A DNA stretch of 64,000 nt. Source: Arthrobacter sp. CAU 1506 (GTDB lineage: Bacteria > Actinomycetota > Actinomycetes > Actinomycetales > Micrococcaceae). Where the stretch lies: positions 100,856 to 164,855 of the forward strand of contig NZ_SUKC01000007.1 of assembly GCF_005047635.1 (NCBI RefSeq), given 5' to 3'. The position numbers and the translations under genes are program-made. A model generated the notes under the pieces. The model was not told where the DNA came from. It made no database searches and worked only from the letters and a program-made list of their open reading frames with translations. Below are positions 7,198-29,297 of this stretch, one piece after another. Each line of letters begins with the position of its first letter. The stretch's first letter is position 1.

Positions 7198-8690
7198 CCA
7201 ACACCGCCTCCACCTTGTTCATCAACGGCGCTTGGGAGCCGGCCGCGTCCGGCGCGGTGCGCGAAATCCGCAACCCCGCCGACGGCCAGCTGGTCGCCAC
7301 AGTGTCCGAGGCCGGCCGGGAGGACGCCGAACGCGCCATCGCTGCGGCCCGCACCGCGTTCGACTCCGGCGTCTGGGCGTCCGTCCCGGCGCCCGAGCGC
7401 GGCGACTTCCTGCTGAAGGTCGCGGCCGGGCTGCGTGAGCGCCGCGAGGAATTCGCCCGCGCCGAGTCGCTGGACACCGGCAAGCGGCTGGTCGAAAGCC
7501 GGCTGGACATGGACGACATCGCCGCCTGCTTCGACTACTTCGGCAAGCTCGCCGGCCAGCAGGCCGGCCGGATGGTCGACGCCGGCGACCCCGCCGTCGT
7601 CAGCCGCATTGTGCACGAGCCGGTGGGCGTCTGCGGCATGATCACGCCCTGGAACTACCCGTTGCTGCAGGCGGCGTGGAAGATCGCGCCCGCGCTGGCG
7701 GCCGGCTGCACGTTTGTGCTGAAGCCCGCCGAGCTCACCCCATCCACGGCCATCCTGACCATGCAGTTGCTCCAGGACCTGGGCCTGCCGGATGGTGTTG
7801 CCAACCTGGTGACCGGAACCGGCGCGGAAGCAGGCGCACCGCTCTCCGAGCACCCCGACGTCGATCTGGTCTCCTTCACCGGCGGGCTGGTGACCGGCCG
7901 GGTGGTCGCGGCGGCCGCCGCCGGCACCGTGAAGAAGGTGGCGCTGGAACTGGGCGGCAAGAACCCCAACGTGGTGTTCGCCGACGCCGACTTTGACGCG
8001 GCCGTCGACAATGCGCTGAACGCGGCCTTTGTGCACTCCGGGCAGGTCTGCTCCGCCGGGGCGCGGCTGGTGGTCGAGGAGTCCATCGCCGAGCGGTTCG
8101 TCGACGAGCTGGTCCGCCGCGCCGAGGGCATTCGCTTGGGCGGCCCGTTCGACGAGGCCGCGGAGACCGGACCGCTGATCTCGGCCGCGCACCGGGAGAA
8201 GGTGGACAACTACGTCCGGCGCGGCGTGCAGGAAGGCGCGCGGCTGCGCTGCGGCGGCGCCGCCCCGGAAGGCGCCGAGTACGACGACGGTTTCTACTAC
8301 CTGCCGACCGTGCTGGACCGCGTCGAGCGCGGCATGTCCGTCGTCGTGGACGAGGCCTTCGGCCCGGTGGTGACCGTGGAGACGTTCCGCACCGAGGACG
8401 AGGCCGTGGCCACCGCGAACGACACAGTCTACGGGCTGGCCGGCGCGGTCTGGACGCAGGACGCCGGCAAGGCCCAGCGGGTGGCCGGCCGGCTGCGGCA
8501 CGGCACCGTCTGGATCAACGACTTCCACCCCTACCTCCCGCAGGCCGAATGGGGCGGCTTCGGCCAGTCCGGCGTCGGCCGCGAACTCGGCCCCACCGGC
8601 CTGGCCGAGTACCAAGAGGCCAAGCACATCTACCAGAACACCAGCCCGCAGGTGACCGGCTGGTTCGCTGACCACGGCAAGGAGAGCTGA
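7194..8690 (+). CDS. betB: Betaine-aldehyde dehydrogenase
   Basis: A 498-residue NAD(P)-dependent aldehyde dehydrogenase. The catalytic set is visible: Asn154 in TPWNYP, Glu252 in LELGGK and nucleophile Cys286 in SGQVCSAG, the last pattern being typical of GbsA/BetB enzymes. It would oxidise betaine aldehyde to glycine betaine, an osmoprotectant. It is translationally coupled to betT by a 4-base ATGA overlap and is followed without a gap by the choline dehydrogenase gene. An aldehyde other than betaine aldehyde cannot be excluded by sequence, but the operon strongly favours it. Confidence 0.92.
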   Translation: MTNTASTLFINGAWEPAASGAVREIRNPADGQLVATVSEAGREDAERAIAAARTAFDSGVWASVPAPERGDFLLKVAAGLRERREEFARAESLDTGKRLVESRLDMDDIAACFDYFGKLAGQQAGRMVDAGDPAVVSRIVHEPVGVCGMITPWNYPLLQAAWKIAPALAAGCTFVLKPAELTPSTAILTMQLLQDLGLPDGVANLVTGTGAEAGAPLSEHPDVDLVSFTGGLVTGRVVAAAAAGTVKKVALELGGKNPNVVFADADFDAAVDNALNAAFVHSGQVCSAGARLVVEESIAERFVDELVRRAEGIRLGGPFDEAAETGPLISAAHREKVDNYVRRGVQEGARLRCGGAAPEGAEYDDGFYYLPTVLDRVERGMSVVVDEAFGPVVTVETFRTEDEAVATANDTVYGLAGAVWTQDAGKAQRVAGRLRHGTVWINDFHPYLPQAEWGGFGQSGVGRELGPTGLAEYQEAKHIYQNTSPQVTGWFADHGKES

Positions 8691-10325
8691 ATGCACATCG
8701 ACAACATCGACAACCTGGTGGACCGCGAGTTCGACTACATCGTCGTGGGCGGCGGATCCGCCGGCGCCGCCGTCGCCGCCCGGCTGAGCGAGGATCCGGC
8801 CGTGTCCGTGGCCCTGGTCGAGGCCGGCCCGGACGACCGCGGCGTGCCCGAGGTGCTGCAGCTGGACCGCTGGATGGAACTGCTCGAATCCGGCTACGAC
8901 TGGGACTACCCGATCGAGCCGCAGGAAAACGGTAACTCCTTCATGCGCCACTCCCGGGCGAAGGTGATGGGCGGCTGCTCCAGCCACAACTCGTGCATCG
9001 CGTTCTGGGCCCCGCGCGAGGACCTGGACGAGTGGGAGTCCAAGCACGGCGCCGCCGGCTGGAACGCCGAGGCCGCTTGGCCGCTGTACCAGCGGCTTGA
9101 GACCAACGAGGACGCCGGCCCGGCTGCCCCGCACCACGGCGACTCCGGCCCGGTGCACGTGATGAACGTCCCGCCGGCCGACCCCACCGGTGTGGCGCTG
9201 CTGGACGCCTGCGAGCAGGCCGGCATCCCGCGCGCCACGTTCAACGACGGCACCACCGTGGTCAAGGGCGCCAACTTCTTCCAGATCAACCGCCGGGCCG
9301 ACGGCACCCGCTCCTCCAGCTCGGTGTCCTACATCCACCCGATCATCGAGCGCGAGAACTTCACCCTGCTGACCGGGCTGCGCGCCCGCCAGCTGGTGTT
9401 CGACGCGGACAAGCGCTGCACCGGCGTCGACGTTGTGGACGCCGCCTTCGGCCGGACCTACCGGCTGTCCGCCCGGCGCGAAGTGGTGCTGTCTACCGGC
9501 GCGATCGACTCGCCGAAGCTGCTGATGCTCTCCGGTATCGGCCCGGCCGCGCATCTGGCCGAGCACGGCATCGACGTGCTGGTCGACTCCCCCGGCGTCG
9601 GCGAGCACCTGCAGGACCACCCGGAGGGCGTGGTCCAGTTCGAGGCCAAGCAGCCGATGGTTACCGAATCCACCCAGTGGTGGGAGATCGGCATCTTCAC
9701 GCCCACCGAGGATGGCCTGGACCGTCCGGACCTGATGATGCACTACGGTTCGGTGCCGTTCGACATGAACACGCTGCGGCACGGCTACCCCACCACGGAA
9801 AACGGCTTCAGCCTCACCCCGAACGTCACGCACGCCCGATCGCGCGGCACCGTGCGGCTGCGCAGCCGCGACTTCCGCGACAAGCCGATGGTCGACCCCC
9901 GGTACTTCACCGACCCGGAGGGCCACGACATGCGCGTGATGGTGGCCGGCATCCGCAAGGCCCGCGAAATCGCCGCCCAGCCCGCCATGGCGGAGTGGGC
10001 CGGGCGGGAACTGTCCCCGGGCATCGAGACGCAGACCGACGAGGAGCTGCAGGACTACATCCGGAAGACGCACAACACCGTCTACCACCCGGTCGGCACG
10101 GTGCGGATGGGCCCGGTGGAGGACACCATGTCGCCGCTGGACTCCGAGCTTCGGGTCAAGGGCGTCACCGGCCTGCGGGTTGCCGATGCTTCGATAATGC
10201 CCGAGCACGTGACCGTCAACCCGAACCTCACCGTGATGATGATTGGCGAGCGCTGCGCTGACCTCATCCGCGGCCGCCAGGCCAGCGATGCAACAACGGC
10301 GGCGGCAGGCTCGGCCCGGGCCTAG
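8691..10325 (+). CDS. betA: GMC-family choline dehydrogenase (BetA-like)
   Basis: A 544-residue FAD-dependent GMC oxidoreductase. The N-terminal dinucleotide fold has VVGGGSAGA (about residues 17-25) and the C-terminal region has the conserved His in YHPVGT plus the VNPNLT signature. It would oxidise choline to betaine aldehyde and perhaps further. The ATG at 8691 directly follows the betB stop and uses the ribosome site AAGGAG inside the betB end. Actinobacterial homologues include choline oxidases as well as dehydrogenases, so the electron acceptor is not settled. The operon ends with a strong hairpin. Confidence 0.9.
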   Translation: MHIDNIDNLVDREFDYIVVGGGSAGAAVAARLSEDPAVSVALVEAGPDDRGVPEVLQLDRWMELLESGYDWDYPIEPQENGNSFMRHSRAKVMGGCSSHNSCIAFWAPREDLDEWESKHGAAGWNAEAAWPLYQRLETNEDAGPAAPHHGDSGPVHVMNVPPADPTGVALLDACEQAGIPRATFNDGTTVVKGANFFQINRRADGTRSSSSVSYIHPIIERENFTLLTGLRARQLVFDADKRCTGVDVVDAAFGRTYRLSARREVVLSTGAIDSPKLLMLSGIGPAAHLAEHGIDVLVDSPGVGEHLQDHPEGVVQFEAKQPMVTESTQWWEIGIFTPTEDGLDRPDLMMHYGSVPFDMNTLRHGYPTTENGFSLTPNVTHARSRGTVRLRSRDFRDKPMVDPRYFTDPEGHDMRVMVAGIRKAREIAAQPAMAEWAGRELSPGIETQTDEELQDYIRKTHNTVYHPVGTVRMGPVEDTMSPLDSELRVKGVTGLRVADASIMPEHVTVNPNLTVMMIGERCADLIRGRQASDATTAAAGSARA

Positions 10326-12830: not shown

Positions 12831-13568
12831 ATGGCGTCTGGCGAACTCGACTTCTCGTCCGGGGTCCCGCTGTACCGGCAGATCAAGGAGATCCTGCGCC
12901 GGGAGATCGCGGACGGAGTGGCGGATCCGCAGAAGCCGATGACGGAGGCGCAACTGCTCAGCCGGTTCGAGGTCAGCCGCGCCCCCATCAGGCAAGCACT
13001 CATGGAGCTAACCAGCGACGGGTACGTCTACCGGAAGCAAGGCAAAGGGACCTTCCCGGCCAGGGGTCTCCGGGTGCATAGGCCGGCCGATGTCCAGTCC
13101 GGACGTTTTTACCAGTTCCTGGTGGAAAGCGGGATGCATCCGTCGTCGAAAGTCTCCGCCCCTAAATGGGTGGAACCGCCCGCCGAAGTCGGCCAACTGC
13201 TGGGCATCGACGAACACGAGAGGCTCCTGCATTTCACCCGCCTGATTTCGGTCGAGGGCGCGCCGCTGGCCGAGGCGACCGTGTACATTCGCGCGCCGCG
13301 CGACTTCAACCCCACGGTGCAGGAACTGGAAGAGAGCGGCTCGGCTTTCGAACTGCTGGAACATGGCTACGGCATCACGCTGGGTCGGTCGGAACACGAG
13401 GCGTGGGCGACGGCGGCGACCGCCGATAACGCCGCCACCTTGGGCGTCAGCGTGGGAAGCCCGCTGCTGGTCATCGACACGGTCTTCCGGACCGCGGGCG
13501 GCCGTCCCATCGGCTGGCGCACGGCCCTGCACCACGCCGAAAACTTCAAGTACCGGTTTACTCAGTAG
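12831..13568 (+). CDS. GntR-family regulator with UTRA ligand domain (HutC subfamily)
   Basis: A 245-residue repressor-type protein. The N-terminal winged helix-turn-helix spans about residues 10-75 (PLYRQIKEILRREI, then LLSRFEVSRAPIRQAL). The C-terminal half shows UTRA features such as RLISVEGAPLAEATVYI and PLLVIDTVFRTAGGRPIGW. The ATG at 12831 follows a CTGGAGG ribosome site. HutC-type regulators usually sense a metabolite of a neighbouring pathway. The nearest candidates are the choline operon upstream or the phosphotriesterase-family operon downstream, whose promoter carries a palindrome. The target is not decided by sequence. Confidence 0.88.
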   Translation: MASGELDFSSGVPLYRQIKEILRREIADGVADPQKPMTEAQLLSRFEVSRAPIRQALMELTSDGYVYRKQGKGTFPARGLRVHRPADVQSGRFYQFLVESGMHPSSKVSAPKWVEPPAEVGQLLGIDEHERLLHFTRLISVEGAPLAEATVYIRAPRDFNPTVQELEESGSAFELLEHGYGITLGRSEHEAWATAATADNAATLGVSVGSPLLVIDTVFRTAGGRPIGWRTALHHAENFKYRFTQ

Positions 13569-13599
13569 CTCTCCGACGGCGGCCTCGGGTGTGCCCGGC

Positions 13600-13673
13600 G
13601 GCGGAGCGGTGCGGTGCGCCGAGGCGACCGACTCCGGTGGCGGAGCGGTGCGGTGCGCCGAGGCGACCGACTC
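13600..13673 (+). repeat. Two 35-base direct repeats after the GntR gene
   Basis: A 35-base block beginning GGCGGAGCGG and ending GACCGACTC occurs at 13600-13634 and again, exactly, at 13639-13673, a 39-base period. It lies between the convergent GntR and DUF1801 genes and touches the DUF1801 stop codon. It could be a slippage duplication or paired protein-binding sites. No coding function is apparent. Confidence 0.85.
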
Positions 13674-14031
13674 ACACCTTGCCCGAAGGCAGCTGCTGTA
13701 GCCGCCACGCGATGATCTCGCGCATGAGCTCGGTCGGGAGCGGGGCGTCATGGCGCAACTGGATCAGGTGCTCGGTGGTTCCAAAGTCAGCCAGCTCTGC
13801 GGAGAAATGCGCGATCGCGTCTGGGGTCGGATAGAACCCGATGTGGCGCTTCGTTCCGGTGAAGAAGAACAACGGCTCAGTGCCGAGTTTGAAGGTCGGC
13901 ATACGCCAACTGATCGATTCTTCCGCCTCATCAGGCACAGCCGTCCGGATCAATTCGTACACGGACAACAGCCGATTTCGTACGTCACCGTCGTACTGGT
14001 CGATGTACTCGATGATCGAACTCGCAGTCAT
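13672..14031 (-). CDS. DUF1801 (YdhG-like) family protein
   Basis: A 119-residue soluble protein with the DUF1801 pattern: an N-terminal helix (IIEYIDQYDGDVRNRL), then PDEAEESISWRMPTFK, a strand with RHIGFYPTPDAI and a C-terminal helix ending near WRLQQL. Family members are small alpha/beta proteins, some likened to frataxin-type iron chaperones; the biochemical role is not established. The ATG at 14031 follows GGGAGACC, a good ribosome site, whereas an upstream in-frame ATG would add a low-complexity leader. It is convergent with the GntR gene and forms no operon. Confidence 0.8.
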   Translation of the reverse strand: MTASSIIEYIDQYDGDVRNRLLSVYELIRTAVPDEAEESISWRMPTFKLGTEPLFFFTGTKRHIGFYPTPDAIAHFSAELADFGTTEHLIQLRHDAPLPTELMREIIAWRLQQLPSGKV

Positions 14032-14475
14032 GGCGGTCTCCCTTTTAGCCGACGTCGGTGGGGCGACGGTCGCAGCTTGAGCGATGCCGCAAACCGATCC
14101 TATGACAGCCGAACACAAGCACCCGGCGAATAGCCCGGTGACGGGTCCACTGCGAAACAGCGTTCACAAGCGCCGCCCTGGGCTCGCTGGGGGGGACACT
14201 TCGGTCCGGGCAATCGGCCTGCGCCAGCACCCCCTGACGGCCCCAGAACAACCGGTCGGTAATGGCATTGACTTTCACCCGACATCGTGTAAACCTAGTT
14301 TACAGGTAATCGGGGTCACATGTTCGGGCCGCCGGCAGCCATCCGGCCGGTGCTCGTTTCCTTCGATTACCGACGCCTGCACCGAGTTCGGCGAGGAATC
14401 CATCCAGAGGTCGCGGTGCATGATCCTTCCCAGCGCGTGACGCCCCGGCGTGACGTACAACGAAAGGTTGTGCCG
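14032..14475. other. Divergent promoter region before the phosphotriesterase-family operon
   Basis: The 444 bases separate the leftward DUF1801 gene from the rightward operon. They hold a TTGACT hexamer (14268-14273) and a perfect TGTAAAC palindrome, described separately. The rest has no convincing gene on either strand. The leader from the palindrome to the start codon is about 170 bases and may carry further control signals. Confidence 0.5.
14288..14304 (+). promoter_or_regulatory. Perfect TGTAAAC-cta-GTTTACA palindrome over a promoter
   Basis: TGTAAAC (14288-14294) CTA GTTTACA (14298-14304) is a perfect 7+3+7 palindrome. It starts about 15 bases after the -35-like TTGACT at 14268-14273, so a bound repressor would cover the -10 region. 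It likely controls the operon at 14476-18629. The nearby GntR/UTRA protein or the LysR protein at 22113 are candidate binders. Confidence 0.6.
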
Positions 14476-15459
14476 ATGACGGATACAACGACTTCCACCC
14501 CCGAAACCGTCAACACGGTCCTTGGCCCTGTTCCTGCTCACGAGCTGGGCGTGGTCGCGGTCCACGAAGCACTGCTCTCCGTCCTGCCGGGCGCGCAGTA
14601 CGCCCCGGACATTTCCATGGACCGGGCCGAGATCTTCGAGGCCTTGGCCGCGAAACTCGCCGACTTCCGCGACAAGGGCGGCAAGACCATCGTGGACAGC
14701 ACCGGCATGTTCCACGGCCGCGACCTCAAGCTCTACGAGGCACTGTCCCGCTCCACCGGGGTGCACATCATTGCCTCCACCGGCCTGGGCCCGGAGGAAG
14801 AACTCGGCGGCTACTTCCTGACGCCGCAGACCAACCCGCCCACGCCGTGGCCGGCCGAGAAGTTCGAGGACCTCTTCGGCAAGGAGGTCACCGAAGGCAT
14901 GGTGGTCCCCCGGGTTGAACGCCGCGCCGCCGCCGGGATCGTCACCACCACGGCCGACCGCTCCGGCATGACTCCCACCGAGGAAAGCCTGTTCCGCGGC
15001 TCCGCCCGCTCGGCCAAGAACACCGGCGTGCCGGTCTCCATCCGCTTCGGCGCCGACGTCCTGCACGACCTGGACGTGGTCCTCGACGAGCAGATCGGCG
15101 CGGACCGCGTGCTCGTCGGGGATGTGGACCGCAAGGACGCCGCCAAGTTCGCCCTCGAGGTCGCAGGCCGCGGAGCCTTCGTCGGCATCGACCACGTGGG
15201 CCTGGACGACGACGAGGCCTACCTGACCGACCGCGAGCGGGCCGATCTGGTGCTTGAACTCGTCAAGGCCGGCCATGCGGACAAGATCATTCTTTCCGGC
15301 AACTCCATCGGCGTCGCCAAGGGACTGCCGGAGTACAACCTGCCGTACAGCCACGTGCTGGCAACCTTTGTGCCCTTCCTCAAGGGCCAGGGCCTGAGCG
15401 ACGATGACGCGCAGACCATCCTGGTGGACAACCCCCGCCGCCTGCTGACGGTGCGCTGA
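14476..15459 (+). CDS. Phosphotriesterase-family protein lacking metal ligands
   Basis: A 327-residue protein clearly homologous to the next gene: both share VNTVLG near the start and the TGV..I....G pattern. It belongs to the amidohydrolase-fold phosphotriesterase (PTE) family. Compared with that neighbour it has lost five of the six metal-binding residues. The HxH motif is HEA (His30 kept, Ala32), the bridging Lys is Thr157, and the two following His are Arg190 and Asp216. The last Asp is Asn276. It is therefore probably not a metallohydrolase and may be a structural partner of the second protein. The ATG at 14476 has an AAGG ribosome site and starts just before the conserved region. Confidence 0.82.
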   Translation: MTDTTTSTPETVNTVLGPVPAHELGVVAVHEALLSVLPGAQYAPDISMDRAEIFEALAAKLADFRDKGGKTIVDSTGMFHGRDLKLYEALSRSTGVHIIASTGLGPEEELGGYFLTPQTNPPTPWPAEKFEDLFGKEVTEGMVVPRVERRAAAGIVTTTADRSGMTPTEESLFRGSARSAKNTGVPVSIRFGADVLHDLDVVLDEQIGADRVLVGDVDRKDAAKFALEVAGRGAFVGIDHVGLDDDEAYLTDRERADLVLELVKAGHADKIILSGNSIGVAKGLPEYNLPYSHVLATFVPFLKGQGLSDDDAQTILVDNPRRLLTVR

Positions 15460-15522
15460 CCGCCCCTGGCGAGCACCGCCGTCGTACATCAACACAGCTT
15501 TTCTAATCACGAGGTGAGGGTC

Positions 15523-16476
15523 TTGACCAAAGTAAACACCGTGCTGGGAACCATCCCGGCTGAAGAACTGGAAATCGTGGCGGTCCACGAACACATCGGC
15601 TACGGCATGCCCGGCTCCGAGCTGGACACCAAGTGGTGGAAGTCACCGGAGCAGGCCTACGAGGAAACCGTGCCGAAGCTGCGGAAGTTCCGCGAGTACG
15701 GCGGCGGCACGTTTGTGGACGCCACCGGCATCTGCAACGGCCGCGACATCGACTACTACCGGTCGCTGTCCCGCAAGACCGGCGTCCATATTGTGGCCTG
15801 CACCGGCTTTGTGGGCGGCGACACCGCCCTGCCGCACTTCTCGCGGGCGTCGGTGGACTACCTGGCCAAGGTGTTCATCCACGAGATCACCGTGGGCATC
15901 GGCGACACCGGCGCCAAGGCCGGCGTGATCAAGGTGGGCGTCAGCCGCGGCGGCAAGATGACCGAGCTGGACAAGCGCATTTACCGGGCCGCGGCGCGCG
16001 CCGCCGTGGTCACCGGCGTGCCGATCCTGACCCACCTGGCCATCGACCCCGAACCGGCCGTGAACATCTTCAACGAAGAAGGCCTGCCGCTGGACCGGGT
16101 GCTCTTCGGCCACGCCGACGACGGCCTGAACGCCCCGATCACCCCGCACGACTGGATTTACGAGCAGGGTGGCCGGATCGGCTTCGACACCTTCGGCTAC
16201 GACCTTGAACTGCCGGACCCGCCGTTCTGGGGCCGCAAGCGTGCCGAGCGGATGGAGCACTTCGTCAACCTGGTGAACAAGGGCTACGCGGACAAGCTGC
16301 TGGTCTCGGCCGACGCCAACTGCAGCCCGCTGGGCTGGCCGGGAGTGAAGGGCCACACCATCAACTACATCTTCGAGGACATGCTGCCTGACATGCGCGC
16401 CGCCGGCATCGACGAAGTCACCATCAAGCTCCTGCTGGAAGACAACCCGGCGGACTTCCTGTCCATCAAGGCCTAA
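15523..16476 (+). CDS. Phosphotriesterase-family metal-dependent hydrolase
   Basis: A 317-residue PTE-family hydrolase with a complete binuclear centre by eye: His22-x-His24 (VHEHIG), bridging Lys137 (GVIKVGV), His171 (LTHLAID), His197 (GHADD) and Asp264 (SADAN). Family members hydrolyse phosphotriesters, lactones or other esters, and most natural ones are lactonases. A TTG at 15523 is preferred because GAGGTGAGG lies just upstream and the product aligns with its paralogue. A GTG at 15514 would add three residues. It follows the degenerate paralogue by 63 bases and precedes a flavin hydroxylase, so it probably acts on an aromatic ester or ring-derived lactone. Confidence 0.88.
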   Translation: MTKVNTVLGTIPAEELEIVAVHEHIGYGMPGSELDTKWWKSPEQAYEETVPKLRKFREYGGGTFVDATGICNGRDIDYYRSLSRKTGVHIVACTGFVGGDTALPHFSRASVDYLAKVFIHEITVGIGDTGAKAGVIKVGVSRGGKMTELDKRIYRAAARAAVVTGVPILTHLAIDPEPAVNIFNEEGLPLDRVLFGHADDGLNAPITPHDWIYEQGGRIGFDTFGYDLELPDPPFWGRKRAERMEHFVNLVNKGYADKLLVSADANCSPLGWPGVKGHTINYIFEDMLPDMRAAGIDEVTIKLLLEDNPADFLSIKA

Positions 16477-16496
16477 GCACCGACCATTGATCCGCA

Positions 16497-16527
16497 CCCC
16501 GCCGCGCCACAGACGACGACGGCGGGG
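16497..16527 (+). terminator. GC hairpin after the second PTE gene
   Basis: CCCCGCCG (16497-16504) pairs with CGGCGGGG (16520-16527) across a 15-base loop containing ACGACGACGG. No T tract follows, so it may attenuate or process the message rather than stop it, because the flavin hydroxylase gene starts 57 bases later. Confidence 0.5.
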
Positions 16528-16584
16528 CTCACCATCCATCCCCGAGGTCGCCCCCCGCGGCGTCCAGTGAAGGAACACAGAATC

Positions 16585-17706
16585 ATGAAGACTTCCGACA
16601 TCCAGAACCTGAAGGTTGCCGTCGTCGGTGGCGGCTACGCCGGCGCCTCCGCCGCCCTGGCCCTGCTGCAGCTCGGCGCCGATGTGCACGTCTACGAGCA
16701 GGCCCCCGAGCTGGGCGAAGTGGGTGCCGGCATCGGCCTGCGCCCGCCGACCGTCGAGGTGCTGCGCAAGTGGGGCGTGTTCGAAGAGTTCGCCAAGGTT
16801 TCCGCCCCGTCCGAGGCCATCGAGGTCTACCAGGCCAACGGCGAGCTGATCGCCCGCGACCCGTGGCCGGGCATCAACGAATACGCCCAGACCAACCACT
16901 GCCGCATGGTGCACCGCGGTGACGTCATCGAGACCCTGCTGCGCTTGCTGCCGGCCGAACGGGTGCACATCGGCCACAAGATGATCACCGTCACAGACAA
17001 CGGCGACTCCGCCACCGTGAAGTTCGAGAACGGAGTGGAGGTCACTGCCGACCTGGTGCTGGGCGCCGATGGCATCCGCTCCAGCGTCCGCAACCAGATC
17101 TTCGGCGAAGTCCAGCCGGTGTTCTCCCACACCATCGCCATGCGCGCCGTGATCTCCGCCGACAACGCCTACGGCCTGGTGGAGAACGACAACTTCCGCG
17201 TCTACGTGGGTCTGAACGGCACCACCGTGTACTTCCTGCCGCTGCGCCACCGCAACCAGGTGTCCTTCGACATCACCGCCCCGAGCGAGGACACCACCTG
17301 GGCGCCGGAGGTCACGCACGAGTACATCGGCCAGCTGCTGGAGGGCTTCGACGAGCGGCTGCAGAAGATCGGCCAGGAACTGGACATCGCCGCGATGACC
17401 AACCGCGGCGTCTACGACATCGAGAAGCAGCCGAACTGGCACACCAACAGCGTTGCACTGGTGGGCGACGCCGCGCACGCCATGCTGCACCACCAGGGCC
17501 AGGGCGCCAACTCCGCCATGCAGGACGCTGCCTGGCTGGCCGATGCCATCAAGGACGGCGCCGACCTGCAGGACGCGCTGCGCACCTACCAGGCCAAGCG
17601 CAAGCCGATCACCGACGTGCTGCAGGACATCTCCCGCAAGCCGTTCGACATTGGTGATTCCTTCCCGGAGACCACGTCCTTCAAGAAGGGAGCTGGTGTC
17701 GAGTGA
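16585..17706 (+). CDS. FAD-dependent aromatic monooxygenase (3-hydroxybenzoate/salicylate hydroxylase type)
   Basis: A 373-residue single-component flavoprotein hydroxylase (group A). It has the FAD fold VVGGGYAG (about 13-20), the second FAD/NADPH motif GADGIRSSV (Asp162-Gly163) and the GD motif LVGDAAHAM (294-295), followed by HHQGQGAN. It would insert one oxygen into a phenolic or related ring using NAD(P)H. The ATG at 16585 has an AAGGAA ribosome site 9 bases upstream. Its stop overlaps the following hydrolase start, so the two are coupled. The natural substrate cannot be fixed from sequence. Confidence 0.87.
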   Translation: MKTSDIQNLKVAVVGGGYAGASAALALLQLGADVHVYEQAPELGEVGAGIGLRPPTVEVLRKWGVFEEFAKVSAPSEAIEVYQANGELIARDPWPGINEYAQTNHCRMVHRGDVIETLLRLLPAERVHIGHKMITVTDNGDSATVKFENGVEVTADLVLGADGIRSSVRNQIFGEVQPVFSHTIAMRAVISADNAYGLVENDNFRVYVGLNGTTVYFLPLRHRNQVSFDITAPSEDTTWAPEVTHEYIGQLLEGFDERLQKIGQELDIAAMTNRGVYDIEKQPNWHTNSVALVGDAAHAMLHHQGQGANSAMQDAAWLADAIKDGADLQDALRTYQAKRKPITDVLQDISRKPFDIGDSFPETTSFKKGAGVE

Positions 17707-18629
17707 CCATCCACCCCGAGATCGGCAAGCTGCTCGCCACACTCCCGCCGTTCGACCACAGCGTCCGGCCGGACCCTGTGGGCAAGCGCGCCGGCGACCT
17801 GCAGTTCGTCGCTCCGCTGGAGGACCGGCTGCCGCTGCACGCTGTGGAGGACTCGGTGGCGGTCACGGCGGCGGGCGACGTTCCGGTGCGGATCTATACC
17901 CCGGCCGAAGCAGATTCCTACGGCCTGCTGGTCTACTTCCACGGCGGCGCGTTCTTCTCCGGCAGCCTGGAGACGCACGACCACGTGGCGCGCGCGCTGG
18001 CCAAGGAGAGCGGTTACAAGGTCATCTCTGTCGGCTTCCAGCTGGCACCGGAGGCACCCTTCCCCACCAGCCTGCAGGAGTGCTACGCCGTGGTCCGCTG
18101 GGCCGCCGAGCAGGGCGAAAGCCTGGCCTGGGACGGTACCCGACTGGCGCTGGCGGGCGACAGCTCCGGCGCCAACCTCGTGGCCGCGGTGACGGCGACG
18201 GCGCATGATGACGGCTTCGACCGGATCACGCACCAGGTCCTGTACTACCCGTCCGTGGACCTGGACTTCGACGAGGACCGCTATGCCTCGCTGCGCGAGA
18301 ACGCCACCGGCTACGGCCTGGAGACCCCGGCGCTGAAGCCCTGGAACTCGTTCTACATCGAGAGCGGCGCGGATCCGGCCGATCCACTGGTCTCGCCGAT
18401 CAAGCGCGAGGACCTCTCCGGCCTGCCGAAGGCCCTGGTCATCACCGCCGAGTACGACCCGCTGCGAGACGAGGGCGAACTCTACGGCCAGCGCCTGAAG
18501 GACGCCGGCGTGGACACGACAGTGAGCCGTTACGCCGGGGCCAACCACGGCTTCGTCCAGAACTTCTTCTGGATTCCGGAGTTCTACCGGGCCTTCCAGG
18601 AGACGGCGGAGTTCCTGAACCAGGGCTGA
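17703..18629 (+). CDS. Alpha/beta hydrolase of the hormone-sensitive-lipase family
   Basis: A 308-residue esterase-type enzyme. It shows the HGG oxyanion motif (80-82), nucleophile Ser154 in GDSSG, and the Asp252 (YDPLRDE) and His282 (NHGF) of the triad. HSL-family members act on small carboxylic esters. The GTG start at 17703 overlaps the stop of the flavin hydroxylase (GTGA), indicating translational coupling. The pair suggests hydroxylation and ester cleavage in one pathway. A strong terminator follows. Confidence 0.88.
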   Translation: MTIHPEIGKLLATLPPFDHSVRPDPVGKRAGDLQFVAPLEDRLPLHAVEDSVAVTAAGDVPVRIYTPAEADSYGLLVYFHGGAFFSGSLETHDHVARALAKESGYKVISVGFQLAPEAPFPTSLQECYAVVRWAAEQGESLAWDGTRLALAGDSSGANLVAAVTATAHDDGFDRITHQVLYYPSVDLDFDEDRYASLRENATGYGLETPALKPWNSFYIESGADPADPLVSPIKREDLSGLPKALVITAEYDPLRDEGELYGQRLKDAGVDTTVSRYAGANHGFVQNFFWIPEFYRAFQETAEFLNQG

Positions 18630-18678
18630 CCCCAAAAGCACGACGGCGGTGCCCTGCCCTATGGGGCCCGCCCACCAC

Positions 18679-18716
18679 GGCGGCGGCACGGGTCTTCGGA
18701 CCTGTGCCGCCGCTTT
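18679..18716 (+). terminator. Terminator with UUCG tetraloop
   Basis: CGGCGGCAC (18681-18689) pairs with GTGCCGCCG (18704-18712). The stem continues through a G-T pair and GGTC/GACC to the exceptionally stable loop TTCG (18695-18698). CTTTCTCC follows. It ends the 14476-18629 operon. Confidence 0.85.
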
Positions 18717-18911
18717 CTCCTCCTCCGCACGGATACTTGGCCGCGCCATTTACTCGCGCCCCGCACCGTCCCCGTTCAACTCGGCAGTCTAAACGCCACC
18801 ATCAAGGGCCCGACGGCGCTGCCCGCCTCTCGGCGCCCCGCCCCAAAGCGACGTGCACCATAGCGGCGCTCACTCCGCGGAGGGTGCGCCGCCGTCGCTC
18901 TATTGAGTTTC

Positions 18912-18943
18912 CGTCGCTCCCCTCAAACGTCGCTCCCCTTAAA
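18912..18943 (+). repeat. Tandem 16-base repeat
   Basis: CGTCGCTCCCCTCAAA (18912-18927) is followed at once by CGTCGCTCCCCTTAAA (18928-18943), one base different. The array abuts the left arm of the long stem-loop at 18944. Function unknown. Confidence 0.75.
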
Positions 18944-19000
18944 CGACTGTACGGATGTGGCCCCTGTCCGGCGCGAAAAGGGGCCGTATCCGTACAGTCG
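18944..19000. repeat. Long imperfect inverted repeat (stem-loop)
   Basis: CGACTGTACGGAT (18944-18956) is the exact reverse complement of 18988-19000. Inside it, GGCCCCT (18959-18965) pairs with AGGGGCC (18979-18985), joined by two G-T pairs, giving about 22 paired positions around a 13-base loop. Flanking AAA and TTT extend it. It may be a two-way terminator for the convergent genes, or a mobile REP/MITE-like palindrome. Confidence 0.7.
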
Positions 19001-19109
19001 ATTTGTAGGTGGGACCTGCAGGAGGCGGGCGTCGGTAGGTCTGGCCCTCGGGACGCGTGAGCAGCGGGGCTGCGGCAGCTTTGCAAGCGCTGACGCCCCA
19101 CCGCAGCGG

Positions 19110-20051
19110 TCAGCGGGCGGCGTCAAACTCCTGGCGGTAGCCGTGCAGCGTGGTGAAGAACGGGGAGGGCTCCAGCGCCGGGTTCCCGGTGTAGCCGATC
19201 GCCTCGGCAACCGGTTCGAACGGGGAGTACGCGGAGTCAGTGGCCTGAAGCCCGTCCTGCAGGCACTGCCGGGCGGCCCCGGCGATGCGGGCTTCCAGAT
19301 CGATGCTGAACTGCAGGGCCTCCCGGGCGCGCTCGGCATCGAGGCCAATCTCGTAGGGAACCCCGTTCGCGTCGCGGTACGGGTGCCCCAGGAACAGTCG
19401 GTTGGGCCGGACCTCGTCGCGCAGGTACTCCAGGCTCTTGCGGTAGGCGGCCGGCTCCTCGTAGCCGGGGAAGCCGTTCGCGGCACCGTGGGCCTGCACC
19501 GCGTCGCCGACGAAGACGTCGTTCTGCCCGTCGATGACGTAGGCCACGGAGCCGGCGGTGTGGCCGGGAATGTGGTGCACGGAGACGGTTACGCCGCCGC
19601 CGAGGTCCAGTTTCTCACCGCCCTGCACCAGCAGCGTGGGCTCCATCTCGCCGGAGATCACCTTGTTGGCCGCCTGCGTCTGCTCCTCGATGGCGTTCGG
19701 GTTGTCCAGGTACTGCTGGCGTACCTGGACGTAGTTGTCAACGTGCGCGCGGCGGGAGCGCAGCAGCGGCGCGTCGCCCTGGTGGATCACCACCTGCGCC
19801 TTGCGTCCGGTGAGTTCCCACAGCGCATGCGCACCGCCGAGGTGGTCGATGTGGCCGTGCGTCAGCAGGATCCAGCGCACGTCCTCGATCCGGCGGCCCA
19901 GCTTCTCCAGCTCGGGGATCATGCCCTCCACCGGCGAGGTTGTGATGCCGGTATCCACAATGGCCGGCTCGAGGGCATCGATGAAGAAGCTGTAGAGGCC
20001 AAAGCGGCCCCACGGCGACACCAGCGGATGGACTTTCACGTCGTGCGTCAT
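19110..20051 (-). CDS. Metallo-beta-lactamase-fold hydrolase
   Basis: A 313-residue MBL-fold protein with a complete zinc site: THGHIDH (His65, His67, Asp69, His70), His164 in PGHTAG, Asp183 in VGDAV and His223 in LGHPY. Such enzymes hydrolyse thioesters, lactones or related bonds. Nothing here points to antibiotic resistance. The ATG at 20051 follows GGAGAGC, while the frame upstream is open but has no ribosome site. It is divergent from the CocE-type hydrolase across a 160-base region with an AT-rich palindrome, so the two may be co-regulated. Confidence 0.85.
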   Translation of the reverse strand: MTHDVKVHPLVSPWGRFGLYSFFIDALEPAIVDTGITTSPVEGMIPELEKLGRRIEDVRWILLTHGHIDHLGGAHALWELTGRKAQVVIHQGDAPLLRSRRAHVDNYVQVRQQYLDNPNAIEEQTQAANKVISGEMEPTLLVQGGEKLDLGGGVTVSVHHIPGHTAGSVAYVIDGQNDVFVGDAVQAHGAANGFPGYEEPAAYRKSLEYLRDEVRPNRLFLGHPYRDANGVPYEIGLDAERAREALQFSIDLEARIAGAARQCLQDGLQATDSAYSPFEPVAEAIGYTGNPALEPSPFFTTLHGYRQEFDAAR

Positions 20052-20134
20052 GCTGCTCTCCTCAACTCCGGAACCGGCTGGATAGCCCTCAACCATTGTG
20101 GGCCCGAGCCGCTGTGGCCTTGCCCACATCCACT

Positions 20135-20146
20135 TTATTATAATAA
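20135..20146. promoter_or_regulatory. AT-rich palindrome in divergent promoter
   Basis: TTATTATAATAA (20135-20146) is a perfect 12-base palindrome and by far the most AT-rich patch nearby. It sits between the divergent MBL-fold and CocE-type genes. It could be overlapping -10 elements (TATAAT on one strand) and an operator. Confidence 0.55.
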
Positions 20147-20213
20147 TATGTCTGGAGCGAATGCCCGCCTGCAACGGCTCGGGGCACTCGGCCGCTGACA
20201 AGGAGTTGCACAC

Positions 20214-21932
20214 ATGACTGATTTCACGACGTGGAATGCCGGTGGGGAAAAGATCGCCATCCGCAAAGACCTCCGGGTGCCGATGCGCGACGGCGTGGAG
20301 CTCGCCGCGGACGCGTACCAGGGCATGGATGAGAAGCCGCGCCCGGCGCTGGTGGCCCTGAGCCCCTACGGCAAGGAGCTGCAGGCGCTGGCGCTGACCA
20401 CTCCGCCGCAGCGCCGCCCCAGCCCGATGTGGGACGGCTGCATCGAGGCCGGCGACATAGCCCGGATCGTCAAGGAAGACTACGTCCACGTCATCGGCGA
20501 CCTGCGCGGTTCGGGCGCCTCCGGCGGCGAGCACATCGGCAACTACAACGCCGGCGGCGTATCGCTGGGCGAGGATGCTTACGACTTCATCGAGTGGGTT
20601 GCCGAGCAGCCCTGGTGCGACGGCAACGTCGGCATGGTGGGAATCTCCTACTTCGGCTCCATGCAGGTGCTGGCCGCGGCCGAGCGCCCGCCGCACCTGA
20701 AGGCCATCTTCGTCTCCGGCGGCCACTACGACTTCTACGAGACCACCTACCACGGCGGCGTCATGTGGTTCATGCCGCGGGCCGCCCGCGAAGGCCGCGG
20801 CGGCGACTCCGGCTGGGCGTTCACCGACGGCGTGAAGTCGCGGATGATCGAGAAGTACTCCCCCGAAGAGCTGAAGAAGCTAGTCGCCAAGCGCCTGCAG
20901 GACCCGGACGTGGCCGCCTGGCCCAACCTGGTGCACGTGCTGAACTACCCGAAGAACCACGAGGCCTGGTTCGACATCGTGATGAACGATCTCGACGGCG
21001 AGTGGTACGAGGAGCGCAACCCGATCACGCTGGCCCCGAACATCGACATCCCGGTCTGGCTGCAGCTGGACCAGGGCCGCGGCTGGACCCTTGACGGCAC
21101 CATCGAGCTGTACAACGCACTCAAAGGCCCCAAGAAGCTGGACATCGGACCCTACCCGCCCATGCAGTCGCGCCCCTTCATCGAAGAACACGACAAGATG
21201 TTCCGCTGGTACGACTACTGGATCAAGGGCATCGACAACGGCGTGATGGACGAGCCCGCCGTCAGCGTCTTCGTCGAGGGCTCCCGCGAAGTGGTGACCG
21301 CCGAGGCGTGGCCGCCGAAGGAGATCGAGTACAAGTCGCTGTACCTGCGCCCCCGCCACAAGCTCTCCGCCGAGCCGGAGCTGATGGGCGCCGAGTACGC
21401 CGCGCCGGACGGTTTCTACCAGCCCCCGCTGACGGTGACGGACAAGGTCCAGATCATCAACTGGAGCACCGAACCCTTTGAAGAGGCCACCGAGATGATC
21501 GGCACCGGCGCGGCGCACATCTTCGCCGAGATCGACCAGCCGGACACCAACTTCATCCTGCGCCTCTGGGATGCCGCGCCCAACGCCAAGCGCCAGCTGA
21601 TCACTACCGGCTACCTCAAGGCCTCGCACCGCGAGCTCGACGAGCAGCGCACCACCGAGGGCAACCCGTACCACCTGCACACCCGCTCCGTGCCGGTGGA
21701 GCCGGGCAAGATCGAAGAGTACGTGGTGCGCCTGTACCCGTTCGCCAACACGTTCAAGCCCGGCCACAAGCTGGTGGTGGAGCTCTCCAACGCCGAGCCG
21801 CTGGCCGACGAGCACAACGCGCTGCTGCCGCCGGATGCCTTCCACCTGCCCGTCGGCCGCCCGGTCACGCACAAGATCTACCGCGACGCCGAGCACCAGT
21901 CCCGGCTGGTGCTGCCCTTCACCACGCGCTAA
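20214..21932 (+). CDS. CocE/NonD-family (X-Pro dipeptidyl-peptidase-like) hydrolase
   Basis: A 572-residue serine hydrolase of the CocE/S15 family. It has DLRGSGASGG, the nucleophile Ser145 in GISYFGS, a likely Asp286, and the C-terminal jelly-roll domain of the family. The site where CocE has GPWxH reads GPYPPM (312-317), so the catalytic His is replaced by Pro at that position. A non-canonical branch of the family shows similar loss. Its substrate (ester or amide) is unknown. The ATG at 20214 follows AAGGAG, and it is transcribed away from the MBL-fold gene. Confidence 0.83.
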   Translation: MTDFTTWNAGGEKIAIRKDLRVPMRDGVELAADAYQGMDEKPRPALVALSPYGKELQALALTTPPQRRPSPMWDGCIEAGDIARIVKEDYVHVIGDLRGSGASGGEHIGNYNAGGVSLGEDAYDFIEWVAEQPWCDGNVGMVGISYFGSMQVLAAAERPPHLKAIFVSGGHYDFYETTYHGGVMWFMPRAAREGRGGDSGWAFTDGVKSRMIEKYSPEELKKLVAKRLQDPDVAAWPNLVHVLNYPKNHEAWFDIVMNDLDGEWYEERNPITLAPNIDIPVWLQLDQGRGWTLDGTIELYNALKGPKKLDIGPYPPMQSRPFIEEHDKMFRWYDYWIKGIDNGVMDEPAVSVFVEGSREVVTAEAWPPKEIEYKSLYLRPRHKLSAEPELMGAEYAAPDGFYQPPLTVTDKVQIINWSTEPFEEATEMIGTGAAHIFAEIDQPDTNFILRLWDAAPNAKRQLITTGYLKASHRELDEQRTTEGNPYHLHTRSVPVEPGKIEEYVVRLYPFANTFKPGHKLVVELSNAEPLADEHNALLPPDAFHLPVGRPVTHKIYRDAEHQSRLVLPFTTR

Positions 21933-21946
21933 CCCCACAGGGACAA

Positions 21947-21982
21947 CGACGGCGGTGCTCGCCATGGCGAGCATCGCCGTCG
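21947..21982 (+). terminator. Terminator hairpin after CocE-type gene
   Basis: CGACGGCGGTGCTCGC pairs with the mirrored arm ending at 21982; up to 17 pairs meet at a tight ATG turn (21964-21966). ACGCTTCTTCCC follows. The stem begins with the ACGACGGCG sequence seen at several operon ends here. Confidence 0.75.
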
Positions 21983-22063
21983 ACGCTTCTTCCCACCCAA
22001 GCGGGCGCCGCCGTCGTCCGTTTCTGCGCATTGAAGTGGCCACCGCCAAACTGCTTCTGCGCG

Positions 22064-22099
22064 CTGGGCGGGCGCCGTCGTCGTTCTCACCCCGCCCAG
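22064..22099 (-). terminator. Hairpin after the LysR gene
   Basis: CTGGGCGGG (22064-22072) and CCCGCCCAG (22091-22099) form a 9-base stem just past the leftward LysR stop at 22113. The 18-base loop contains GTCGTCG. No T tract on the minus strand. Confidence 0.5.
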
Positions 22100-22112
22100 G
22101 GCAGGTAGGACG

Positions 22113-23087
22113 CTAACTGGGCAGCTTGTACCGGGCCTGCAACGGCTCGGCCGCCTCGAGCAGGATCTCCCGCAGCCAGGTCTTGAAGGCGCCGTCGGCC
22201 AGCCACGGGTTCCAGACCATGTCGATGCCCAGCGGCTCGACCGGAAACGGGAACTCCTCCACCCGCAGGTCGAATCGGCCTTCGAACTCCAGCCCCACCT
22301 GGTAGCGGTGGATCGCCACGCCGCTGCCGGACTGAGCAATCAGGTGCGGCACGAACAGGTGGTCGGAGACCCGCTGGCGCACCCGGTACGGGATGCTCTT
22401 CTCGTCCAGGATTTCGTACGGGCGCAGCCGCTCCGACGGCGAGTCGGGAAACACGTGCGGCACCTGCTCCAGCAGCTGCAGGGCGTCGGCGTCGCGGGGC
22501 TCGTTCCACGACGCCACCACCACCCACCGGTCGTCGTACAGCCGCTCCCGGGGATGCGGCGACGGGAACGCCTCCGGCAACAGCACCACGTCGGCGGCGT
22601 CCTCCACGAACGGCGCACTGGTGGCCACGCTGGTGGTGCGCAACTGCAGCACGGTGTTCGGCGCGCGCTCCGCCAAGAGCCGGCTGAGCTCGCTGCCGAT
22701 CACGAAGGCGGTGCTGTTGGTCATCGCCACCGTGATCTGCCGGGTGTCCACGGCGGGATCGAAAGATGAGGCGCTGATAATGCGCGCCGTCTGGTGCAGC
22801 GCCTGCCGCAACGGAGCAATCAGTTCCGCGGCACGCGGCGTGAGCACCATCCCCCGGCCCTGCCGGACCAACAGCCCGTCATTCAGCAGCCGCCGGGTCC
22901 GGTTCAACCCATGGCTCATCGCCGGCTGGGACAGCCCCACCTTGCCGGCGGCCTTGGTCACCGACCGCTCCTCCAGCAGGGCCAGCAGGGGCACCAGCAG
23001 GTTCAGGTCGATGGAGGCCAGCCGTGCCAGATCGGCGTCCATGGCGGTCTCCGGCCGGACATCGGCCAGCGGATCCAGTGACGACAT
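22113..23087 (-). CDS. LysR-family transcriptional regulator
   Basis: A 324-residue LysR-type protein. The helix-turn-helix lies at about residues 25-85 (LNLLVPLLALLEERSVTKAA, then GLSQPAMSHGLNRTRRLL), followed by a ligand-binding domain of normal size. The ATG at 23087 has an excellent GGAGG ribosome site; an ATG 39 bases upstream lacks one. It is divergent from the ferredoxin gene and may control ferredoxin/reductase and the hydrolase genes around it, which is the usual LysR arrangement. The effector is unknown. Confidence 0.9.
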   Translation of the reverse strand: MSSLDPLADVRPETAMDADLARLASIDLNLLVPLLALLEERSVTKAAGKVGLSQPAMSHGLNRTRRLLNDGLLVRQGRGMVLTPRAAELIAPLRQALHQTARIISASSFDPAVDTRQITVAMTNSTAFVIGSELSRLLAERAPNTVLQLRTTSVATSAPFVEDAADVVLLPEAFPSPHPRERLYDDRWVVVASWNEPRDADALQLLEQVPHVFPDSPSERLRPYEILDEKSIPYRVRQRVSDHLFVPHLIAQSGSGVAIHRYQVGLEFEGRFDLRVEEFPFPVEPLGIDMVWNPWLADGAFKTWLREILLEAAEPLQARYKLPS

Positions 23088-23269
23088 CGAAACCTCCGTT
23101 GGAGTGAGCGTGGGCATGTCCAGCACCGTCCGCCCAGTCTAACCATCTATTCATCAGCTGCACACCACGGATGAAAACTATTCATTTGCCGAACACCAGT
23201 GGCGCTGCCAAGCTTGCAATAAGCCCGGCGTGTGAAGCAAGCCACACGCAGATTCGAGTGGAGAACAAC

Positions 23270-23458
23270 ATGGAAATCATCTTGGACCGGCCGCGCTGCG
23301 AAGGGCACGGCCTCTGCGAAGAAGTCGCACCGCAGCTGATGCATCTGGACGACGACGGCGAACTGGTACTGGACGTGGTGCACGTCGACGAGGGCCAACT
23401 CGAAGCGGCCAAGCAGGCCGCCCGGGTATGCCCGGTCGCCGCACTCCGCCTGGCCTGA
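23270..23458 (+). CDS. [3Fe-4S] ferredoxin (P450-redox type)
   Basis: A 62-residue acidic ferredoxin. The cysteines are Cys10, Cys16 and Cys54 followed by Pro, in the C-x5-C...CP spacing of single-cluster [3Fe-4S] ferredoxins that serve cytochromes P450 in actinobacteria. The residue expected for a fourth ligand is not Cys. The ATG at 23270 follows GGAG. The reductase gene starts two bases after its stop, so both are made together. No P450 or Rieske oxygenase gene lies in the window, so its partner is elsewhere or not recognised. Confidence 0.9.
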   Translation: MEIILDRPRCEGHGLCEEVAPQLMHLDDDGELVLDVVHVDEGQLEAAKQAARVCPVAALRLA

Positions 23459-23460
23459 CC

Positions 23461-24648
23461 GTGCAGTTGGAACGTATCGTCGTCGTCGGTCATGGCATTG
23501 CCGGGCTGACGGCCAGTGATTCGCTGCGCGCCGCGGGATTCGACGGCGAGCTGACCATCGTCGGCGACGAGCACCACGCGCCTTACAGCCGGCCGGCGCT
23601 CTCCAAGGCGGCGCTGCTGGACGCAGAGGAGATGACCTCCCACCAACTTCCCGCTTCGACGCACGAGGCCCGCGAACTCCTGGGCGTCCGGGCCCTGCAG
23701 CTGGACCCGGGCCTCAAGTCGGTAGTGCTCGACGACGGCAGCATCCTTCCGTATGACGGACTGGTCGTCGCCACCGGCTCACGGGCCCGTCGCCTGGCCA
23801 GCGCAGACCCGGCCGCGCGCCGGCACGAGCTGACCCTGCGCACCCTGGAGGACGCACTGGAACTGCGGCGCCGGATTGTGGACAAGCCCTCGGTGGTGGT
23901 GGTCGGCGGCGGCGCCCTCGGCATGGAGATTGCCTCCGGCTGCCTGGCCGCGGGCTGCGACGTCACGCTCGCTTCACACCGCCAGCCGATGGCCCAGCAG
24001 CTCGGACGGTATCTGTCCGAGGTCTTCCTCGCTGCCGGCCTGGACCACGGCCTCAGGCTTGCCCCGTCCCAGGCCGTTGGCCTGCGCGAGGCAGACGGCC
24101 ACCCTCTGGTGGAGCTGGCCGACGGCTCCAGGCTTGCGGCTGATCTGGTGGTCAGCGCCATCGGCGATATCCCGAACACCGGCTGGCTGGCGGACAGCGG
24201 AATCCTGACCAATGGCAGGCTGGAAGTCGACAGCCGCAGCCGGGTGCGCCCGGACATCGTCGCCGCCGGCGATGTGGCCGCCTTCCCCACTGCCCGCGGC
24301 GTCGGCCGGATTCCGCTCTGGACCAGCGCCATCGAGCAGAGCAAGACCGCCGCCCTGGCCCTGCTGAACGGCGACGACGCCCCGGAGCTGGAGTTCCGCC
24401 CCTACTTCTGGACCGAACAGTTCGGCCTCAGCCTCAAGGCCAGCGGATTCCTCCCGCTCGAGGGAACCCCAGAGTTCCTCGAAGGCGGCCCTGGCGGCGG
24501 CCCCGCGCTCATGCGCTGGACGCACCAGGATAGTTCCGGCACCGCCGTCGCGCTCAACTACCGCATCCCCATCCCCAAGCTGCGCCGCCTGGCCAACCCC
24601 GCCCCCGCCCTCGTCGAGACGCCCGCCCTCGTCGAGACGCCCGCCTGA
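23461..24648 (+). CDS. FAD-dependent ferredoxin reductase
   Basis: A 395-residue NAD(P)H:ferredoxin reductase of the putidaredoxin/rhodocoxin reductase type. It has an FAD-binding GHGIAG near the N-terminus, the NAD motif VVVVGGGALGMEIASG (about residues 150-165) and the second FAD motif around AAGDVAAFP. The GTG at 23461 is two bases after the ferredoxin stop. The C-terminus carries a duplicated ALVETP hexapeptide from an 18-base tandem repeat. It transfers electrons to the ferredoxin for an oxygenase that is not encoded beside it. Confidence 0.9.
   Translation: MQLERIVVVGHGIAGLTASDSLRAAGFDGELTIVGDEHHAPYSRPALSKAALLDAEEMTSHQLPASTHEARELLGVRALQLDPGLKSVVLDDGSILPYDGLVVATGSRARRLASADPAARRHELTLRTLEDALELRRRIVDKPSVVVVGGGALGMEIASGCLAAGCDVTLASHRQPMAQQLGRYLSEVFLAAGLDHGLRLAPSQAVGLREADGHPLVELADGSRLAADLVVSAIGDIPNTGWLADSGILTNGRLEVDSRSRVRPDIVAAGDVAAFPTARGVGRIPLWTSAIEQSKTAALALLNGDDAPELEFRPYFWTEQFGLSLKASGFLPLEGTPEFLEGGPGGGPALMRWTHQDSSGTAVALNYRIPIPKLRRLANPAPALVETPALVETPA
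24607..24642 (+). repeat. 18-base tandem duplication in the reductase C-terminus
   Basis: GCCCTCGTCGAGACGCCC occurs at 24607-24624 and again, exactly, at 24625-24642. It is in frame and doubles the peptide ALVETP just before the stop. This looks like a recent slippage duplication. Confidence 0.9.
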
Positions 24649-24923: not shown

Positions 24924-24987
24924 TTAACCCTTCTCGCTACTCTGTAATGGTCATCACGTGACGAAGGCGACAGGGAGAGGAGGCATC

Positions 24988-26058: not shown

Positions 26059-26146
26059 TCACCCGAGCACCGCACCGGCGTCGTCCGGTGATCCCACCAC
26101 GCACTTCAAGTAATCCCCCATGCCCTTCAACAGGAAAGACTCTGCT

Positions 26147-27469: not shown

Positions 27470-27482
27470 CCCCCGGTGACGC

Positions 27483-27513
27483 GTACGACGGCGGTGCCGC
27501 ACCGCCGTCGTAC
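27483..27513 (+). terminator. Perfect 14-base hairpin after the MFS gene
   Basis: GTACGACGGCGGTG (27483-27496) and CACCGCCGTCGTAC (27500-27513) pair perfectly around CCG. No T tract follows, and the next gene is 50 bases on, so it may be partial termination or a message-stabilising stem inside the operon. Confidence 0.65.
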
Positions 27514-27562
27514 CGTCCCCTCTGACACTTCCCCACCTGCACTACCCAAGGAGCACCACCCC

Positions 27563-28327: not shown

Positions 28328-28356
28328 TTTACCGGCACCACCAAAGGAACAACATC

Positions 28357-29289: not shown

Positions 29290-29297
29290 GCCATCAA

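Follow-up and report, generated by a model that had tools for sequence, protein, structure and literature searches.

Why would a bacterium keep, directly in front of an intact gene of the phosphotriesterase (PTE) family, a related gene in which most metal ligands of that family are replaced? This question is raised by two neighboring genes, here called A and B, in a stretch of 64,000 nucleotides of Arthrobacter sp. CAU 1506 DNA (hereafter the window; Table 1).

Two adjacent genes of one enzyme family

Both genes belong to the PTE family (PF02126) and score 138.4 bits (A) and 163.8 bits (B) against a gathering cut-off of 22.4 in a Pfam scan, and their products align with 31% identity over 325 columns (E 7e-39 and 4e-42). 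No Pfam domain other than PTE lies above the cut-off in A, which has only a sub-threshold match to His_biosynth besides, and the best 50 matches listed in a fold search are all PTE entries. The closest solved relative of A is PDB 4if2, a "phosphotriesterase homology protein" (114 bits), and those of B are parathion hydrolase/PTE entries (approximately 124 bits). The TTG start codon of B is deduced from the orthologs, whose matches to B start at its first residue at nearly every locus. Among the 63 aligned pairs described below, the genes follow each other in the order A then B with a spacing between −4 bases (an overlap, in Caballeronia) and 74 bases. A terminator or structured RNA in the A-B gap was considered and rejected: no terminator-like site was found in 13500-22200, where the scan is weak (shuffles averaged 4.3), and the predicted RNA fold of the gap is not unusual (z 0.41).

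Table 1. Features of the A-B locus, in coordinates of the window.
Feature	Position	Strand	Remarks
GntR/UTRA-type regulator	12831..13568	+	Upstream of A; in 9/48 long loci
Gene A, PTE-family (PF02126) protein	14476..15459	+	327 aa; ATG start; of six metal ligands, only H30 retained
Codons of A residues 103-130 (GLGPEEELGGYFLTPQTNPPTPWPAEKF)	14782..14865	+	A-specific loop; 19/28 residues invariant (63 orthologs)
Arg190 codon of A	15043..15045	+	Invariant in 63/63 A orthologs; column of a metal-ligand His
A-B gap	15460..15522	+	63 bases; Shine-Dalgarno-like GAGGTGAG (by eye) before the TTG of B
Gene B, PTE-family protein	15523..16476	+	317 aa; TTG start; all six metal ligands intact
Flavin monooxygenase (FMO; FAD_binding_3)	16585..17706	+	ATG chosen as likely start
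Alpha/beta hydrolase (ABH; hormone-sensitive-lipase type esterase)	17703..18629	+	
Metallo-beta-lactamase-fold hydrolase (MBL)	19110..20051	-	Inverted here; 313 aa; start inferred
CocE/NonD-type serine hydrolase	20214..21932	+	
Ferredoxin and ferredoxin reductase	23171..24648	+	Beside the cluster's P450 in many related loci

The metal-ligand columns

Related loci were collected from a GTDB genome scan (38 loci), from further genome samples, and from one Caballeronia plasmid. Both A and B score at least 250 bits at 104 of these loci, which were reduced to 65 non-redundant A-B pairs, of which 63 were aligned. Left out of the alignments and of the dN/dS calculations were Arthrobacter sp. Hiyo8 (L025), where B, FMO, ABH, CocE, ferredoxin reductase, and P450 are in pieces, and locus L110 (genome G104), where A lies in two frames. 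For comparison, we used 29 other PTE-family proteins that had been selected for their match to A or B; L124 and L125 were excluded as duplicate loci.

At the six ligand columns, B has H22, H24, K137, H171, H197, and D264, and A has H30, A32, T157, R190, D216, and N276. These residues are exactly those named for both genes in the original prediction, as seen in the pairwise as well as in the 63-pair alignment, and the loss of five ligands from the first gene with retention of all six in the second holds across the 63 pairs. Each of the six ligands of B is present in 63/63 orthologs, while in A the same columns contain His (61) or Ser (2); Ala (60) or Ser (3); Ala (35), Thr (23), Val (4), or Arg (1); Arg (63); Gly (36), Asp (25), Glu (1), or Ser (1); and Asn (56), Ser (5), or Gly (2), so that the standard residue has not been regained at any of the five lost columns. 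The 29 other family members keep five of the columns in 29/29 cases and the Lys column in 28/29, with all six ligands retained in 28/29. Judged by the alignments, the loss of ligands is therefore an old mark of the A group. The exception among the other members (L132) is encoded on a plasmid of Pantoea sp. At-9b and aligns without the bridging Lys but with the other ligands present.

By the same alignments, B has the binuclear-metal ligand set of a PTE-type metallohydrolase, namely an HxH pair, a Lys that would be carboxylated, two further His, and an Asp. A does not have this set, and B is predicted to be a normal binuclear-metal hydrolase of the PTE/lactonase family. A total of 79 of the 327 residues of A are invariant in the 63 orthologs, and neither a His nor a Cys is among them. 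An alternative metal site in A was rejected on these grounds, and we regard it as very doubtful that A is an ordinary if divergent hydrolase which binds its metal through shifted ligands: His30 in 61/63 orthologs and an acidic residue at column 216 in 26/63 would suit such an enzyme, but four of the six columns are free of His, Asp, Glu, Lys, and Cys in all 63 orthologs, and none of the His or Cys residues elsewhere in A is invariant.

Co-occurrence and history of the pair

Among 395 Micrococcaceae genomes, an A ortholog was found in 44 and B, in a separate search, in the same 44; the remaining 19 of the 63 Micrococcaceae genomes that match A at E 1e-20 contain only relatives at the 27-30% level. 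A sample of the order yielded matches to A in 6/396 genomes, of which three were new, all with B. In a sample of the phylum, 10/396 genomes match, and A orthologs are present in only two of them, the source genome and genome G804. The genus of the latter has A in 7/148 genomes (G804 among them) with B adjacent in 7/7, although B of one of these (G1230) fell below the E-value cut of the search and was found adjoining A upon inspection of the locus; the six further loci from this genus are not among the 63 pairs. On plasmid p2 of Caballeronia insecticola, the genes for A (56%) and B (69%) overlap by 4 bases. In total, A was found in 54 genomes and one plasmid record, none of which lacks an adjacent B, and at all 38 loci of the GTDB scan, whose genomes may partly overlap the other samples, B follows A (in pieces at L025). 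The expectation that homologs of the two genes co-occur as neighbors is thus borne out in 44/44, 3/3, and 7/7 genomes and on the Caballeronia plasmid, and homologs of the first gene are not commonly found alone. The reverse question, whether B occurs without A, covered the 395 Micrococcaceae genomes and the plasmid collection.

A more distant B-like gene of Sinorhizobium (34%; L097) has no second PTE-family gene that we could find within a stretch of 17 kb, and the phage collection contains only distant relatives of B (25-29% among the best 5 of 10 records).

In a maximum-likelihood tree of 20 of the 63 A-B pairs and the 29 other members, A forms one clade and B another, and both together are set apart from the other members with support of 99/94. 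The two branches joined here are long and the join carries an uncertainty flag, and A and B are sister clades only when the tree is rooted within the other members; with such a root, the tree suggests that A and B stem from one old duplication. We also compared protein distances among six cluster proteins, all of which are encoded at 47 of 52 loci; L033 and L038 were additionally left out of this comparison. The partial correlation between A and B, given the four other cluster proteins, is 0.48 and the largest that involves A or B, though that of ABH and CocE (0.52) is higher.

Selection on A and its private invariant residues

Pairwise dN/dS values (NG86) were calculated for 900 pairs drawn at random from 1953. 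The 846 that passed the dS filter gave a median of 0.209 for A versus 0.183 for B. A evolves faster than B, with a higher dN in 819/846 pairs, and its mean protein distance (0.288) resembles that of ABH (0.287) and MBL (0.287) more closely than that of FMO (0.337), B (0.184), or CocE (0.145). The 79 invariant residues of A hold over 63 orthologs down to 57% identity. A is under purifying selection and retained. One of 44 Micrococcaceae copies (G104, locus L110) has A split over two frames next to an open B, where a sequencing error and a real interruption are indistinguishable.

The chance survival of A as a duplicate in decay is hardly credible, since the single interrupted copy is all that would speak for it, while the dN/dS of approximately 0.21, the 79 invariant residues, and the preservation of A from Actinomycetota to Caballeronia contradict it, and this explanation was rejected. 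A pattern of frameshifts or relaxed selection, another outcome against which the original prediction had asked to be checked, is likewise not what we observe. The same prediction had called A a retained pseudoenzyme, and its retention is well supported. Its status as a pseudoenzyme is unproven, given 30 invariant residues of A that differ from the commonest residue of B and of the other family members. These include Arg146, Arg149, Arg190, and Arg219, whose columns are usually occupied by other residues in B and in the remaining members, and they make it possible that A binds a ligand or is active without a metal. The acidic residues E31, D74, D218, and D239 do not vary among the A orthologs either and would, from their place in the sequence, lie at the catalytic end of the barrel.

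Half of the private invariant residues (15/30) are located in residues 103-130, where 19/28 positions are invariant compared to 60/299 elsewhere (hypergeometric p 3e-7, which serves as a guide only because this range of residues was chosen with the data in view and the sequences share ancestry). Residues 103-118 of A align with SsoPox 95-110 and are followed by an insertion of 8 residues (119-126) after SsoPox Ser110, which places Gly105 and Pro106 of A opposite Tyr97 and Ile98 of SsoPox (all counted by eye). In the accessible part of a study of SsoPox, residues 97 and 98 are listed among those lining a cavity at the interface between monomers that connects the active sites (PMC7084321). The available text on SisLac similarly describes a dimer interface near the active site and substitutions, including one at an interface position, that lowered lactonase activity (PMC3468530). 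The loop of A would therefore map to where related enzymes dimerize.

A conserved cluster of predicted oxidizing and hydrolyzing enzymes

The neighborhood of the pair was compared at those loci (48/65) that extend 5 kb or more to the left and 6 kb or more to the right of A; these loci had been fetched by A, which is thus present in 48/48 by construction. B and FMO are found in all 48, followed by ABH (47), MBL (46), CocE (45), a P450 (42), ferredoxin reductase (40), and a large MFS transporter (35). The closest solved relatives of the FMO are tropone 2-monooxygenase and 6-hydroxynicotinate 3-monooxygenase. No P450 was found in the 64-kb window, though 42/48 long loci have one, and the nearest P450 of the source genome (57%) is encoded on another contig (G000:C40:90051-91202; L136). 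The closest solved structures to the Caballeronia P450 are those of CYP199, and the P450 of locus L008 is 62% identical to the Caballeronia protein. Beside the latter locus's P450, an MFS transporter (L008:7908-9644, minus strand) resembles DHA2-type efflux pumps while scoring below the cut-off of the model, a hint of detoxification more than of simple catabolism.

From its content of P450, FMO, and hydrolases, the cluster looks like one that would oxidize and then hydrolyze a small and perhaps cyclic or aromatic molecule, for either detoxification or food. Riboflavin/lumichrome catabolism was considered and set apart by described gene content, not by sequences: the riboflavin/lumichrome cluster as presented in the accessible part of its description includes a thiamin-dependent decarboxylase and a catechol dioxygenase (PMC12746152), neither of which was seen in the A-B cluster. 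No paper describing such a gene cluster was found in the literature searched, as judged by titles and the beginnings of abstracts. Elsewhere in the window, adjoining genes that resemble betaine-aldehyde dehydrogenase and choline dehydrogenase are located a few kb upstream (7194-10325), and a LacI regulator, an MFS transporter, an SDR, a beta-keto acid cleavage enzyme, and a glycerate kinase (24958-30275) look like another catabolic module.

What A may do for B

A has never been met without a live B in the genomes examined, which makes a function for A probable, and most likely one that aids its partner. The best single reading, to which we lend somewhat more belief than doubt, is a heteromer of A and B in which A is a dead subunit, as the original prediction had also suggested. 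After an old duplication, the two genes would have traveled together within a cluster that oxidizes and hydrolyzes a small molecule. A would have kept its barrel but be dead as a metallohydrolase, with Arg190 and neighboring charged residues in place of the metal center, and it would have been retained for its physical contact with B. Its loop 103-130 may form part of the groove by which the active sites of family dimers are connected, resulting in an assembly with a single catalytic site, in B, that A would shape, stabilize, or gate. A more specific version of this proposal is tentative, and we would sooner bet against it than for it: an obligate asymmetric PTE heterodimer in which the invariant loop of the metal-less A (GGYFLTPQTxPPxPWPA) completes or gates the active site of its twin, and which has spread with the P450/FMO/hydrolase cluster across Actinomycetota and into Caballeronia.

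A and B lie in one reading frame that is interrupted by just one TGA, so that a read-through A-B chain could be modeled. AlphaFold2 returned a pTM of 0.49 for this chain from an alignment of 16 rows and a pTM of 0.52 with a mean pLDDT of 80.6 from 50 rows (the 16 read-through rows plus 34 of the remaining 47 A sequences). With monomer weights, an artificial linker of 22 residues, and a shallow alignment, this is a weak test of contact. Both models have confident barrels whose mutual placement is without confidence, so that an interface is neither supported nor excluded, and we read each as a pair of domains that fold well but have no defined arrangement. In the 50-row run, high pLDDT covers most of the A half, consistent with a barrel fold. 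The low-confidence segments (41-46, 115-120, and 145-147 in A; 27-38, 70-73, and 267-277 in B, by the numbering of B) include or border highly conserved loops.

The main rival to the heteromer is that A is a metal-independent enzyme that performs its own pathway step without B, e.g., of a lactone/isomerase type, with its arginines arranged around an anionic substrate. Within the amidohydrolase superfamily, LigI offers a precedent for catalysis without a metal, although no paper on it was among the matches listed in the literature search. The strict co-occurrence of A and B is also expected if A is another step of the pathway, because FMO is as faithful to the pair (48/48) and ABH nearly so (47/48); the four private arginines, the four invariant acids, and an evolutionary rate of A close to that of its neighbors ABH and MBL also fit an enzyme of this kind. 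However, an active site made without any invariant His or Cys, two former ligand columns that drift (A/T/V/R and G/D/E/S) unlike those of a tuned active site, and the concentration of half of the private invariant residues in one loop region argue against it, and we consider this explanation possible though rather unlikely.

Less probable still, and in our view a poor bet, is that A works as a stand-alone binding or regulatory protein (i.e., a sensor, a carrier, or a chaperone for the metallation of B) and not as a stable subunit. The lost catalytic site, the private arginines, and the position of A directly before B would be in line with such a role, but PTE is the only domain above cut-off in A, and some loci (9/48) already have a GntR-type regulator.

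Comparison with known systems

Enzyme evolution is often studied in phosphotriesterases. If A and B do form a heteromer, this natural pair of an active and an inactive chain would offer a test of how a homodimer turns into an asymmetric heteromer and of what use a dead chain can be to a live one. The pair also draws attention to a cluster that is widely retained and has a P450, a flavin monooxygenase, and four hydrolase folds. No described case of a PTE-family pseudoenzyme or heteromer was found in the open-access literature searched, as judged by title.

Related superfamily members provide partial parallels. The CRMP/DPYSL proteins are metal-less relatives of dihydropyrimidinase in the amidohydrolase superfamily that form hetero-oligomers but, unlike A, they are animal signaling proteins from a different family of this superfamily and are not known to be encoded in an operon with an active twin. 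Dihydroorotase is another member of the amidohydrolase superfamily. An inactive dihydroorotase-like chain (pDHO) is a needed partner of the active aspartate transcarbamoylase (ATCase) of Pseudomonas aeruginosa, according to the accessible part of the report on this complex (PMC7053772), and this would be a precedent by analogy for an inactive chain that serves an active enzyme. The active partner of pDHO is an unrelated transcarbamoylase, whereas the partner of A in the complex proposed here would be its own paralog.

The closest known systems are the PTE-like lactonases and phosphotriesterases themselves (SsoPox, PTE/OPH, and 4if2), which share their fold and family with both A and B and their six ligands with B. 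As far as described in the available text of the SisLac study, one type of active chain makes up the dimers of SisLac and SsoPox, and the crystals of DrOPH, GsP, and GkL contain homodimers (PMC3468530). SsoPox does not have the insertion of 8 residues in the loop of A, and where these enzymes pair two copies of one active chain, the locus described here encodes a ligand-less paralog beside an intact one.
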